Of a DNA stretch of 51,679 nt, positions 6,485 through 39,679 are shown in pieces. The stretch covers positions 1 to 51,679 of the forward strand of contig NZ_WSZK01000016.1 of NCBI RefSeq assembly GCF_009791395.1, in the 5' to 3' direction. Positions within the stretch are counted from its first letter, which is position 1. Every line of letters begins with the position of its first letter. The notes under the pieces are model-generated. The model was not told where the DNA came from. It saw only the letters and a program-made list of their open reading frames with translations, and made no database searches. Position numbers and translations under genes: made by a program. The stretch is from Halomarina oriensis. GTDB lineage: Archaea; Halobacteriota; Halobacteria; Halobacteriales; Haloarculaceae.

Positions 6485-6568
6485 ACCCGAACCATCGTCA
6501 CCCGGGCCGCCACGGTCGGCCTCGACTCCACGGACCGCCCCGACGGGCGCTGAGTATCGGTGCGGTGC

Positions 6569-6586
6569 GTACCGTTATCACGGTAC
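6569..6586. promoter_or_regulatory. Palindrome over the promoter of the C45-like hydrolase gene
   Basis: GTACCGT-TATC-ACGGTAC is a perfect 7+7 bp inverted repeat centred 28 bp before the ATG at 6605, exactly over the TATA-like TTATC. This geometry suits a repressor operator. The regulator is not known. Confidence 0.5.
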
Positions 6587-6604
6587 CGTCCGTCGTCGTC
6601 GACG

Positions 6605-7843
6605 ATGCCGAGTGAGCGTCACACCGAAGCCGACCGAGACGAGCAAGCCAGTCCGGGGACCGAGCGGTCCCGACTGCGACGGCTCGGTCCGGCGGTTCGA
6701 CACAACCTCCGTGGCTTCCGGGCCGCCCTCGATTGCCGTGGTCTCAACCGCGAGCGAGTCTGCCGAATCGCTGCCGAGCGGGTGTCGGAGCTTCCGGCCA
6801 CGACACGCACCGAACTCCAGGCGACGGCACGGGCTGCTGGAGTACCGTACCGTGACCTGCTCGCGTTCACCCTGTTCGACGAATCGGTCTCGCCCGACGG
6901 CTGTACGGTAGCGGCCGCGACCGGAGCCGCGACCGCTGGCGGCGGCACCGTCTTTTTCAAACAAAGCGACAAGGACGGCGCGGCGTCGTTCGAGGGGCAG
7001 GGCTACCACCGTCACCGGCAGGTGAACGTCGTCCGCACGGAACGTCCGACCGGGAGGAACCACGTGGTCGGCGTAACGGCGGCCGGGTCAACGGCGCTCA
7101 AGATGGGAATGAACGACCGCGGGGTCGCGGTCGGGAGCAACTTCGCCGCGACGGCGGCGTTCGACGCGGACGAGGCCGACCTCGATGCCCGGATGGCCGT
7201 GTCTCGGGGTGAGTACCTTCGACAGGGCCTGCTGCACGGCGACACGGCCGTCGAGGTGGCACAGCACGTCGCGGCGCGGCTGCTGGAGTCGCCGATGGCG
7301 TCGCCGGGTATCATCGAAGTGGCCGACGCCGACCGCGTCGTCGTTCTCGAAGGTGCTCAGACCAGCCTGGCGGGCGAGTGGACCGATGACGGCGTCGTCG
7401 TCCGAGCCAACGCGTTCGGCCTGCTCGACGACCGCTCGCCGCTCGTGTCCGAACTCGCGTCGAGCCGTCGCCGCGCCGACCGCGCCGAGACGCTGCTCGC
7501 CGCCGCCGACGGCGCGGTGGCCGTCGGAACGATGCGCGACCTCTCGGTCGACCACGCGAACGGTCCCGGCGACGACTCAATCTGCCGCCACGAGACCGAC
7601 GACTACACCGACGCCGCCTCGCTCTCGGCGGCCGTCTTCGACATCGACGGCGAGCGCCCGGCGGCGAGCGACTGCTATCTCGCGCTCGGCACACCGTGTC
7701 ACGCGTGGCGGAGCGACGAGGGCGACGGCTGGCTCCGACTCTCACCGACGGCCACCGCCGACGACGTCCCCGAACGGTTCCTGACGGGCGAAGCGTGGCT
7801 CGACTACTACTCAACGGCGGCGAACGACGGTCCCGTCGACTGA
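6605..7843 (+). CDS. C45-like Ntn hydrolase (acyl-CoA:6-APA acyltransferase family)
   Basis: Predicted 412-aa N-terminal-nucleophile hydrolase of the peptidase C45/acyltransferase type. In this family a Cys exposed by autocleavage attacks an amide bond. The candidate nucleophile is C100 in SPDGCTVAAA, the usual DGCT cleavage context. GMNDRGVAVGSNF (near residue 160) is the conserved segment that follows the nucleophile in choloylglycine hydrolase-like folds. The N-terminal 99 residues would be the removed or alpha-chain part. Start ATG 6605 sits behind a TATA-like box inside a palindrome. No signal peptide is seen. It may remove an acyl group from a modified amine, consistent with the neighbouring deacetylase, creatininase and nitrilase genes. 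Confidence 0.78.
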   Translation: MPSERHTEADRDEQASPGTERSRLRRLGPAVRHNLRGFRAALDCRGLNRERVCRIAAERVSELPATTRTELQATARAAGVPYRDLLAFTLFDESVSPDGCTVAAATGAATAGGGTVFFKQSDKDGAASFEGQGYHRHRQVNVVRTERPTGRNHVVGVTAAGSTALKMGMNDRGVAVGSNFAATAAFDADEADLDARMAVSRGEYLRQGLLHGDTAVEVAQHVAARLLESPMASPGIIEVADADRVVVLEGAQTSLAGEWTDDGVVVRANAFGLLDDRSPLVSELASSRRRADRAETLLAAADGAVAVGTMRDLSVDHANGPGDDSICRHETDDYTDAASLSAAVFDIDGERPAASDCYLALGTPCHAWRSDEGDGWLRLSPTATADDVPERFLTGEAWLDYYSTAANDGPVD

Positions 7844-7886: not shown

Positions 7887-9056
7887 TCACGCCTTGGGGT
7901 CGTAGAGCCGCCCGTTCATGAGCACCCGTGCAGTCCTGTCGACGGTCGTGGCGGCTATCGCCTCGCCATCGCGGTTGACGCCGACACGGAGCGTCCCCTT
8001 CGGATGTGCGATGGTGACCGCGTCGGTCGCCCCCTCCGCGAGGAACTCGCTCGGTATCGTCCCGTCGAGCACCGCGGCGGCGGCGGTACACATCGCGCCG
8101 GTGACGGCGTAGGCGTGGTGAGCCGTCCCCATCGACAGGATACGCGCGAGCAGGTCGTACTCGTCGGGCGTGATTCGGTCGCCGTCGACCGTCTCGTAGG
8201 TGCGACGCTCCCCGACCACCGCCAGCTTCGGGACCCCCGGACTCTCCGCGGTCGCGTCGGCCGCGTCGGCGACGATCCCGAGGCGTTCACACGCGGCGCT
8301 TCGGATCCGCTCCAGTCGCGCCAAGAGGTCGGCGTCGGCGTCGATCTCCGTCGGTCGTTCGGCGGCTGTGCAACCGACGTCGCTCGCCCGAACGAACACA
8401 CAGGGGTTCGACACGTCGACGAGCGAGACCTCGACCGCGCCGAAGTCGGGGACGTCGAGCACGTCGGTCCGGTGGCCGGTCGGAAAGAGGGCGTCGGTCA
8501 TCGCCCCGGCGGGATCGAGAAACCGCGACCGGATGCGCGCGCCGGAGCGCGGGAGGCCCGCGACGTCGAACGTGCCGGCGTACTCGGGCTGCCCGCTCGG
8601 GCCGAGCGGTACCGACTGCTCGACGCGGGTGCCGGTGTTCGTGTTCTCCAGTCGGAGCGTGACGCGTCGCTCGTCCGCGCTCGCTTGCTCGTCGACCGCC
8701 TTCGGCGTCACGAGACCGCGCTCTAGCGCGAACGGGCCGACACCGAAGGTGAGGTTGCCGCAGTTGCCGCCCCAGTCGACGACCGGCCGCTCGATGCCGA
8801 CCTGCGCGAACGTGTACTCGACGTCCGTCGCTCCCTCGCCCGCCGCGACGACCATCGCCTTGCTCGTCGTCGAGTGTGAGCCGCCGACGCCGTCGAGTTG
8901 CATCGGGTCCGGGCTGCCGAACAGCCGTGACAGGAGCGAACCACACCGCTTCCGGTCGTCGGGGAGGTCGTCGCGTTCGAAGTAGCCACCCTTACTCGTC
9001 CCGCCCCGGACGAGTGCGGCGGGGACGCCCGGTCGTCGGGAGTCGTCGGCCGTCAT
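7887..9056 (-). CDS. PrpF-like isomerase/tautomerase (4-oxalomesaconate or methylaconitate type)
   Basis: Predicted 389-aa member of the PrpF family (diaminopimelate-epimerase fold), which catalyses cis-trans isomerisation or tautomerisation of unsaturated tricarboxylates and related acids. The N-terminus VRGGTSKGGYF and the motif DWGGNCGN (catalytic Cys at residue 99) are characteristic. The tail GVNRDGEAIAATTVDRTARVLMNGRLY is also typical. Its start codon overlaps the stop of the propeller gene by 4 bp (tcat at 9053-9056), with this gene upstream, so the two are translationally coupled. In a sugar-acid or aromatic breakdown route it would act on an unsaturated acid intermediate. I cannot tell which acid. 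Confidence 0.85.
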   Translation of the reverse strand: MTADDSRRPGVPAALVRGGTSKGGYFERDDLPDDRKRCGSLLSRLFGSPDPMQLDGVGGSHSTTSKAMVVAAGEGATDVEYTFAQVGIERPVVDWGGNCGNLTFGVGPFALERGLVTPKAVDEQASADERRVTLRLENTNTGTRVEQSVPLGPSGQPEYAGTFDVAGLPRSGARIRSRFLDPAGAMTDALFPTGHRTDVLDVPDFGAVEVSLVDVSNPCVFVRASDVGCTAAERPTEIDADADLLARLERIRSAACERLGIVADAADATAESPGVPKLAVVGERRTYETVDGDRITPDEYDLLARILSMGTAHHAYAVTGAMCTAAAAVLDGTIPSEFLAEGATDAVTIAHPKGTLRVGVNRDGEAIAATTVDRTARVLMNGRLYDPKA

Positions 9057-34126: not shown

Positions 34127-35781
34127 TTAGAGCTCGGTGATACGAGTGTAGTCGTCGTCCAGCGCTTGCGCGTCCTCTTCGAGGAGGGCGACGACGAGAT
34201 ACGGTGCGTAGTCGGCGACGTACTCGACGAGATCGGCGAGGCGGTCGGCATCGATCGCTTCCAGCGAGTCGAGGAGAACGAACGGGAGCGTCTCGTGAGC
34301 TTCGTGGACGAGGTAGCCGGCCAGCGCGAACACGAGACCCGTCACCTCACGCTCGCTCTCCGAGAGGTGGCCGACGGTGTCTTCGTAGGTGCTCCCCGAC
34401 GCGGTTGACCGGACGACGTGGAGCTCAAACGCTCGCTTGTCCACCTTGCGACGGCCCTCGCGGACGGTTCGCTCAACTCGCTCGATCCAGATGCGTTCGA
34501 GATTGTCATACCCCAAGATGTCGAGGACCGCATCCATGTGATCGTTGAACTCCTCGATGGCCCGCTCCTCGATGCGGTCGATACGGGTTCGAAGTTCGGT
34601 CAACTGCTCGGAAAGCTCCTCACGCTGTGCGGTGAGCTGATCGACCGTCGCCAACCGGTCCTCGATGGCTCGGACGCGGTCGGTGGTGTCATCGCCGCCA
34701 GTTTCTCGCGGCGTGCGTCACGCAACTGAGCAAGGGTCTGCTCGATGCGCTCGGCGGCGACCTCGGAACCACAGGTCCAACAGACGACCGACCCGTCGTC
34801 GACCAGCTGGTCGGTCACTGAGCCCTCCGACGACACCCCGCCGTCGAGGGCGTCGCCGACCGTCCCCTCCACACCCTCCAGCAGCTCTTCGTTGAACGAT
34901 ATGACGTTCTGCAGGTCGCTCACCTGCGTTTCGAGCCGCTCCTTCCGGTCACGGAGCTGCGCGAGCGCCGTCTCCAGGTCTTCCGAGTCCTCGTCCTCCG
35001 GGTCGGGGAGGTCGTCGAGCGTCTCTTCGAGGTCGCTGTGCTCGGCGGTCAGCGAGTCGAGGCTCCCCCGTTGCAGGTCGATCTCCGAACGGACCTCCTC
35101 AACGTCGTCCCGACGCTCGCGGAGTTCGTCGAGGTGGGCCTCGAGTTCGGCCTTCTCGTCTCGTTCGTCCTCAACGGTCGTGTCGTGGGCCTCGATGGCC
35201 GACTCCTTGGCATCGAGGGCAGCACGTGCTTCCTCGATTTCGGATTCGAGGCTCCCTCGACGCTGTTCGAGAGCGGGAAGCTCGTCTTTCAGCGCGTCTA
35301 TTTCGTCGAGTTCGTCGTCGATGCGGTCGCGTTCGGCTTCCAGGTGTTCGATGTCCGCCTGGATGGCTTCAGTGTCGACCGGCCGCATAATGAGGCCACG
35401 GAGGTCGGCTCCTCGCTCGACGGCACGCCGTGCGTCGTTGGATTCGAGGAGGAACGCGAACAGATCGGCGACCGTCGGGTCGTCGAGGTACGGGTCACCG
35501 CCGACGACGACATCACCGTTCTGTCTGGTGAGCGTTCTCGTATAGCGTTCGTCGCCGATTAGGAGCTCGACCGACCCGTCGGACGAATCGCCTTTGAGCG
35601 ACGCCGCGTCGTCGCTCCCCAGTGCCAGCATGAGTCCCTTGAGAAACGATGTCCGATTGGTCGCGTTCCGACCGGCGAGAACCGTCACACCTGGGTCGAA
35701 CGAAACCTCAGTGTCGTCAATTCCCCCGATGTTAGTCGCGCGGACGACGACCGACCCGTCGGTCACGCTTTCTGTACTCAT
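34127..35781 (-). pseudogene. Archaea-specific SMC-related protein (Sph3-like), frameshifted near 34690
   Basis: Haloarchaeal SMC-like ATPase. The N-terminal ATP-binding segment has AGRNATNRTSFLKGL, a divergent Walker A in which the GK pair is not conserved, as I recall for this group. A long acidic coiled coil (about residues 125-330) follows, with a CWTCGSE zinc-hook-like CxxC at its tip. The first frame continues to REKLAAM and then becomes nonsense, stopping at 34600. The next frame carries the rest from DTTDRVRAIEDRLATVDQL through LSESEREVTGLVFALAGYL (signature) and LPFVLLDSLEAID (Walker B). Restoring one nucleotide at about 34685-34697 gives about 551 aa. ATG 35781 is supported by a TATA-like TTACTAAAT about 30 bp upstream. 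The rdfA neighbour is also broken. Confidence 0.82.
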
Positions 35782-35835
35782 ACCAGCATTCGGAGCGGCG
35801 TCCATTTAGTAATACTGTTTTCGACGCCGTTCGCC

Positions 35836-38364: not shown

Positions 38365-38853
38365 TCAGATCGAGTCGGGTTTCTCGGCGTCTCGCACGTC
38401 GGCTACGACCTCTTCGTTCAGTCCCAAATCGTCAGCATACTCGGGGAGACCGATGTCCAATTGCGACTTTGAGAGACCACAGCCATAGAACGTACTGAGG
38501 AGATACTGCGTCTCCCACTGGAAGTCGACGCCCCGGCGTTCAGCTGCGTCGTGCATAGCGCGGTCGTTCGTGACGACACAGCAGTTGGTCGCCTCCGCCA
38601 AGATGATACACGCCCAATCAGCGACTGCAAGGCGCATCGGTGCTTCGACCTCGACGGTTTCGAGATTTACCGATTGGAGCGTCAGCCACTCCGGTTGGGT
38701 CGTATCATGGTATGCTGAAAACTCATCCCACACCCGCGTTGGTGCGTACAGGTCGTGCGTGGGGTCCCAGAACAAGAGCGCTTCAAGCCAGTCAACAGCA
38801 AAGAACGACGAGATGACATTCGTATCTAAGACGAATCCCGCCGGCTCACTCAT
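38365..38853 (-). CDS. PIN-domain nuclease, second gene of a two-gene module
   Basis: Predicted 162-aa PIN-domain protein, a Mg-dependent RNase fold typical of VapC toxins. The acidic residues expected for the active site are D10 (VLDTNVISSF), E44 (VWDEFSA), D79 (VADWACI) and D97 (VVTNDRAMH). It is longer than VapC (about 130 aa), with a C-terminal extension WETQYLLSTFYG onward. It overlaps the upstream 277-aa gene by 8 bp (38846-38853), so the two must be co-translated. No VapB-like antitoxin is seen, so the partner may take that role, or the pair may be an unrelated RNA-processing or defence module. Confidence 0.8.
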   Translation of the reverse strand: MSEPAGFVLDTNVISSFFAVDWLEALLFWDPTHDLYAPTRVWDEFSAYHDTTQPEWLTLQSVNLETVEVEAPMRLAVADWACIILAEATNCCVVTNDRAMHDAAERRGVDFQWETQYLLSTFYGCGLSKSQLDIGLPEYADDLGLNEEVVADVRDAEKPDSI

Positions 38854-39679
38854 TCACGAGCCCGACACCATCGTTGTGCAGCTCATCGACCGACGACGGC
38901 CCGCTTCGCAGTTCAACGTCGTAGGCGTCAAGCGACTCCTCAAACTCGAATCGGGAAGTATCAGCCAACTCAGCCCCCCTCCCGAGTGAGATTGGCATAT
39001 TGGAATATACCGCTACAGCACCGAATTCGAGTACTGCCCGGCGGATAGTGGCATACTCGGCGCTAGCCGGGTCCGGAAAGTTAGATTCGCCGTCCAGTCC
39101 TTCATCGATGTAGTATATTGCGACACCGACATCTCGGGTGAGTGCCCGAATATCGCTCTCGTCCGGTTCGTCCTGCTCAAGAAGGGTCTGGAGTCGGATT
39201 AAGAAGGCGAGAATCGACGAGATAATCTGGCGTTTGCGTTCATCAGATAGGCCATCGCTGTCGAGCTCTCTCACTCCTGCCTGGACTCCAAGCACTCCTG
39301 CGACCAAGACAACGAGAGTCTCGGCGCTTCGCTTGCGATTGACGTGGCTGAACAGCCTTTCCAGCATGTCCTCGAACATCGAATCGAACAGTAGCAACAC
39401 GCGGTCACCATCGACATTCGGGGCGAGCGCTTGCAGCGCTTCGATGTCACCAACTGCCTCGGCAAACCGGTCTTCGAACACCTCTATTGAGGTGGTGAAA
39501 CGCTCGTGTTCGTCCATCGAGAGAATCTCCTGAGAGATTTCTCGTACGGCCACTTCGGGGTCCTCGAATATGAGGCCGAAGAACAGGTTGAGCTTCTTGA
39601 ATTCGTTTTGAATCGGGCCGAGTGGTCCTTGTGGGCCACCGAACTGGTCCGGCGAGCCGCCTGGGTCGATACGAGACAT
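38846..39679 (-). CDS. Unknown 277-aa acidic helical protein coupled to the PIN nuclease
   Basis: No family recognised. The protein begins MSRIDPGGSPDQFGGPQGPL with a Gly/Pro-rich leader. It continues mostly helical: NEFKKLNLFFGLIFEDPE, then a segment with a hydrophobic stretch (AETLVVLVAGVLGVQAGVRE, about residues 120-140) that could be one membrane segment or a buried helix, then KRQIISSILAFLIRLQTLLEQ. The last 60 residues are acidic. ATG 39679 gives the natural start. The gap upstream to the Tat-protein gene (39680-40010) has no gene I can support. Tight overlap with the PIN gene suggests it binds or inhibits the nuclease. Confidence 0.7.
   Translation of the reverse strand: MSRIDPGGSPDQFGGPQGPLGPIQNEFKKLNLFFGLIFEDPEVAVREISQEILSMDEHERFTTSIEVFEDRFAEAVGDIEALQALAPNVDGDRVLLLFDSMFEDMLERLFSHVNRKRSAETLVVLVAGVLGVQAGVRELDSDGLSDERKRQIISSILAFLIRLQTLLEQDEPDESDIRALTRDVGVAIYYIDEGLDGESNFPDPASAEYATIRRAVLEFGAVAVYSNMPISLGRGAELADTSRFEFEESLDAYDVELRSGPSSVDELHNDGVGLVNE

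Follow-up and report, generated by a model that had tools for sequence, protein, structure and literature searches.

A pair of overlapping genes in Halomarina oriensis very probably encodes a type II toxin–antitoxin system of the UPF0175 (COG2886)–PIN class. The system would be a haloarchaeal form of that class, distinguished by an additional helical domain of ~180 aa in the antitoxin. The genes lie within the window, by which we mean the whole 51,679-nucleotide stretch of DNA that was analysed, one contig of a 4.07-Mb assembly; their features are listed in Table 1. A sequence-only reading of this DNA had described a PIN gene that overlaps by 8 bp with a gene for a 277-aa helical protein, and this description held up: the two open reading frames are present with their overlap, and the AlphaFold2 model of the partner contains no strand. 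The length of 277 aa is counted from an ATG that is supported by the relatives, the frame itself extending upstream to a TTG.

Table 1. Features of the gene pair, in positions of the window
Feature	Position	Strand	Basis
PIN-domain protein, 162 aa, predicted ribonuclease toxin; D10, E44, D79, D97	38365..38853	-	ORF; AlphaFold2 model; Foldseek; invariant acids
Antitoxin, 277 aa: disordered start, helical N-domain, UPF0175 helix-turn-helix, short C-terminal tail	38846..39679	-	ORF; PF03683 E=7.4e-7; AlphaFold2 pLDDT 80.6
All-helical N-terminal domain, residues about 21-192	39104..39619	-	Helices H21-37 to H174-192 in AlphaFold2 model
UPF0175 (COG2886) helix-turn-helix domain, residues 210-258, motif ISxxRGAELA	38906..39052	-	Pfam match; 9/9 relatives
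C-terminal tail, residues 259-277 (GPxSxEEL...), probable toxin-binding segment (contact with PIN predicted)	38849..38905	-	Distribution
Gene overlap, 8 bp, ATGAGTGA	38846..38853	-	Sequence

The partner had been said to match nothing known, and this did not survive a profile search: in hmmscan its C-terminal quarter (residues 210-258) matched Pfam UPF0175 (PF03683) with an E-value of 7.4e-7 and a score of 29.2 bits, above the curated cut-off of 27.9. The match recurs in all nine relatives of the partner, and 'UPF0175 family protein' is the RefSeq label for the copies in Halobacterium hubeiense, Halorussus aquaticus and Halorussus limi. UPF0175/COG2886 has been predicted to be a helix-turn-helix (HTH) antitoxin of PIN toxins (Makarova 2009, PMC2701414). 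A transport protein or an enzyme was ruled out for the partner, which had no such Pfam or NCBIfam match. When a profile of the long antitoxin was searched across the phylum, many short proteins matched its last ~70 positions only, often including the tail, while the full-length matches in this phylum-wide sample came from haloarchaea only. At 277 aa, the partner also departs from the small build (an HTH with or without a ribbon-helix-helix, RHH) that is typical, though not strictly defining, of such antitoxins. A known antitoxin family is therefore present in the partner, but only in its C-terminal quarter, and the pair is new only in part: the N-terminal ~180 aa have no known relative outside the family.

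The distribution of the C-terminal tail was informative about the division of labor in the antitoxin. The GPxSxEEL tail is present in 12/12 PIN-linked copies and in 0/10 of the PIN-less relatives described below, and it is found in short UPF0175 antitoxins as well. The tail thus appears to track the toxin and not the N-domain, which would make the tail the likeliest toxin-binding part (probably so, in our view) and the N-domain an exchangeable module, seemingly in the position that the RHH occupies in other UPF0175 antitoxins.

The novelty of the pair is this ~180-aa all-helical N-domain, which replaces the RHH, or nothing, of short UPF0175 antitoxins. In the AlphaFold2 model, which is of fair quality and was built from six sequences (pLDDT 80.6, pTM 0.79), it consists of eight helices. 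It had no match in Pfam or NCBIfam, nor in the PDB by sequence or by fold; assignment to a known fold was dropped (best Foldseek E 0.88, TM about 0.2), as were sequence matches to GvpK, Exo70, Csa5 and others, all single-member and sub-threshold. Among the relatives the N-domain is less conserved than the C-domain (mean identity 26% versus 42%).

The N-domain has no known relatives save a group of PIN-less chromosomal proteins found here. A profile of the N-domain alone retrieved the toxin-linked copies and ten further proteins of 272-330 aa from three genera, Haloarchaeobius and two other haloarchaeal ones (L129:1303-2145 and L114-L122). All ten occupy one fixed chromosomal slot, in which a UPF0179 gene is followed by the relative and then by an oppositely oriented gene whose product resembles, as judged from its sequence, the succinylglutamate desuccinylase/aspartoacylase (AstE) family; no PIN of the pair's family was found in these ~3.4-kb loci. 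Like the long antitoxin, they consist of the helical N-domain and a C-terminal HTH, here degenerate (hhalign E 1.8e-9 for the N-domain alone), whereas unlike the pair they keep to a fixed slot, have no PIN partner and lack both the ISxxRGAELA motif and the GPxSxEEL tail. A branch with 100/100 support parts the toxin-linked from the PIN-less group in a tree that is unrooted and has long branches.

The second gene keeps all four acidic positions that the sequence-only reading had pointed out: D10, E44, D79 and D97 do not vary among the eight PIN sequences of the first alignment, nor among the six behind the structure model. The best AlphaFold2 model, from these six sequences, has a pLDDT of 74 (the other four models are below 54) and shows the PIN order of strands and helices, with Foldseek matches to VapC4, PRORP/HARP and other PIN proteins. 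By sequence, the window PIN matches Pfam PIN models only below the cut-off and the DUF3368 model not at all. Compared with the PINs encoded beside short haloarchaeal UPF0175 genes, the profile of its subfamily showed remote homology over 137 columns (probability 91.6, E 8.2e-7; a single hhalign comparison); against other VapC-type PINs from neighboring loci, represented by a thin profile of two sequences, no match was detectable. Thus the UPF0175 domain of the partner and the homology of the PIN to those of short pairs, that is, both halves, indicate the same known pair class. Among PADLOC models, the partner had no match and the PIN matched only PDC-S70, at E=0.02.

Set against known systems, the pair shares with UPF0175/COG2886–PIN (COG2405/DUF3368-like) pairs the gene order (antitoxin first, PIN second, overlapping), the UPF0175 HTH, a GPxSxEEL-type tail and a homologous PIN profile. 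It differs from them in the length of the antitoxin (270-295 aa versus about 70-150), in its N-terminus (a helical domain versus nothing or an RHH), in the overlap (8 bp versus 4 bp) and in the PIN, where D79 lies in an A/PDW motif and many tryptophans are invariant, the short-pair PINs having GEAEA instead. Both forms can occur in one genome, as an ordinary short UPF0175–PIN pair with a 4-bp overlap (G000, L031, C2:637-1478) is found in a genome that also has a long pair. With VapBC the pair has in common a PIN ribonuclease toxin and a DNA-binding antitoxin encoded upstream; in contrast to VapBC, the antitoxin is not of the RHH, AbrB or PHD type, and the PIN profile did not match the two other VapC-type PINs of the thin profile. 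Taken by its sequence features, we regard the pair as a clade-restricted variant of UPF0175–PIN pairs that is marked by the helical N-domain. A published description of the long-antitoxin pair was not found in the open-access literature, to which the search was confined (subscription papers lay outside its scope).

The two genes are conserved as a unit. Across 391 genomes of the class, nine contain the long antitoxin, and there are exactly eight strong PIN matches (E 7e-65 or better; the next match is at 7e-8), each of which directly follows a long antitoxin, so that the gene pair passes the conservation check in 8/8 cases. Behind the ninth long antitoxin, on a plasmid of Halobacterium hubeiense (L007/L085), only the first ~30 PIN codons remain. 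Plasmid and genome records added loci from Halorussus aquaticus, Halorussus limi and Natrinema thermotolerans, for a total of twelve, and the named relatives are haloarchaea without exception. The pair is kept across several haloarchaeal families. It is intact in 10 of the 12 loci; in H. limi, as in H. hubeiense, the PIN is broken (in-frame stop about one quarter in; L082:7995-8465) and the long antitoxin intact, and the reverse was seen at none of the 12. Such toxin-only decay is what a toxin–antitoxin pair predicts, although two cases are few.

The overlap is part of what is conserved. In ATGAGTGA the PIN start ATG falls within the final codons of the partner, GAG TGA, and the same register is found in 8 of the 11 loci with a readable PIN start, so it is not due to chance; because the overlap is kept, a C-terminal N/D-E is common to the antitoxins. 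Of the remaining three loci, one has a short gap and two, both from Halorussus, are off the 8-bp register, the PIN starting either with an ATG just past the stop or with a GTG that gives a 4-bp overlap. Both genes are under purifying selection in every part: dN/dS between closely related pairs was 0.07-0.14 for the PIN, 0.11-0.17 for the N-domain and 0-0.10 for the tail (three comparisons, in one of which one PIN has a stop). The identities of antitoxin and PIN correlate with r 0.93, or 0.67 without close pairs, as expected of partners inherited together. A viral origin was dropped, as relatives of neither gene were found in IMG/VR by the patterns used. The suggestion of a new toxin–antitoxin pair is thus supported with regard to toxin–antitoxin, by the UPF0175 domain in 9/9 relatives, the PIN acids, the conservation of the pair, the selection on it and the toxin-only loss.

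The loci of the pair look mobile, judging by their gene content: they lie on large plasmids in Halobacterium, Halorussus and Natrinema, and integrase-like neighbors were read from the sequence at others. In genome G050 (L074:3017-10537) and on the Natrinema thermotolerans plasmid CP031304.1 (L083:7308-14321) the pair sits between brxC and pglX of a type 5 BREX system, on the opposite strand. The G050 locus contains the brxC 3' end in duplicate (8556-8878 versus 6537-6859, 76%) and the interval also holds an OLD-type nuclease; therefore the brxC–pglX interval of BREX-5 seems to acquire accessory genes. In H. hubeiense, ~2.5 kb separates the copy from Hachiman genes (HamAB), and the Natronobiforma copy adjoins a PADLOC PDC-S11 match. 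On a Haloarchaeobius contig (L072:1374-1966, 6165-6988) two more toxin–antitoxin pairs, of the RHH–PIN type, were observed not more than 3 kb from the long UPF0175 pair. No defence genes adjoin the pair in the window, where its neighbors are small hypothetical genes, an SMC-like ATPase and genes that resemble those of sugar metabolism. At 34127-35805 (minus strand) the ATPase, of the SMC/RecF-like AAA_23 type with a coiled coil, is followed by a 136-aa protein, and the two together resemble the haloarchaeal SMC-related/RdfA-type pair.

Upstream of the antitoxin start, an 11-bp element, GCGATAGATAT, occurs at a distance of 30-45 bp in five loci (L037:7950, L075:7670, L074:8308, L038:1467, L083:9066), Halorubrum and Natrinema loci included, and nowhere else among the 129 loci compared; the window's locus lacks it. 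The element may serve as a TATA-like promoter or as an operator. An upstream search for an inverted-repeat operator gave none beyond those in shuffled sequences.

As a toxin–antitoxin module, the pair could work as follows. One transcript would carry the antitoxin ahead of the toxin, an order that is seen in the sequence, and the 8-bp overlap would couple translation of the toxin to that of the antitoxin. The PIN, given its fold and residues, would be a metal-dependent endoribonuclease in which the four acids bind metal. By analogy with the family, the UPF0175 HTH would bind the promoter of its own operon and repress it, and the short tail would fill the active-site groove of the PIN and neutralize the toxin, a role that its absence from the PIN-less relatives would also fit. 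The N-domain, in place of the RHH, would most likely join antitoxin subunits and time the release of the toxin, the role being a guess. Where the loci lie suggests that the module may stabilize plasmids and defence islands, halt growth under stress or infection, or both.

We also considered that the pair is a dedicated antiviral module, in which the N-domain senses a phage protein, DNA damage or the failure of BREX or Hachiman and frees the PIN upon infection, leading to abortive infection or guarding a host defence system. The two loci inside BREX-5, those by HamAB and by the PDC-S11 candidate defence genes, and the one amid a cluster of other toxin–antitoxin pairs fit this idea, as does the fast divergence of the N-domain; however, such genes are frequent on haloarchaeal plasmids and islands anyway, other loci, the window's included, adjoin no defence gene, and a structural scaffold would diverge fast too. 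We consider a dedicated antiviral module unlikely. The support for the earlier suggestion of a defence pair is circumstantial, coming from neighbors at the relatives' loci, and a defence function is possible. A related and similarly doubtful idea, to which we give a shade less weight, is that the N-domain is a sensor module common to the fixed chromosomal protein beside UPF0179 and the mobile UPF0175–PIN pair, so that a sensor-antitoxin would monitor a host or viral process (e.g. BREX-5) and free the RNase when it fails.

It is less likely still that the pair is a regulated RNase rather than a toxin pair, in which the N-domain–HTH protein would regulate transcription or RNA and the PIN would process particular RNAs. 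The constant position of the ten PIN-less relatives by UPF0179 does suggest that the wider family has a PIN-independent role, and protein-only RNase P (PRORP/HARP) is among the best structural matches of the PIN; but the pair is sporadic and in many cases carried by plasmids, neither the HTH motif nor the tail is present in the PIN-less relatives, and the nearest sequence relatives of both halves are UPF0175–PIN pairs. Decay or inactivity of the pair in H. oriensis is very improbable. The window copy stands on a long branch as one of the more divergent, and it has DTN at the first active-site motif, which is DNS in most relatives; yet DTN is a usual PIN motif, neither frame is interrupted, and the copy retains the four acids as well as the 8-bp overlap.

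Antitoxins are mostly small proteins, and how the release of the toxin is controlled is poorly understood. Read as a UPF0175–PIN toxin–antitoxin pair, the haloarchaeal form offers a natural experiment, in which one and the same HTH and tail module is found by itself, joined to an RHH, or joined to a large helical domain. The helical domain, for its part, occurs in a fixed chromosomal slot with neither the HTH motif nor the tail nor the toxin, so the parts can be told apart. As a result, the role of the extra domain can be tested directly in an archaeal group amenable to genetics, and a concrete hypothesis on defence follows from the location of the pair within BREX-5 loci.
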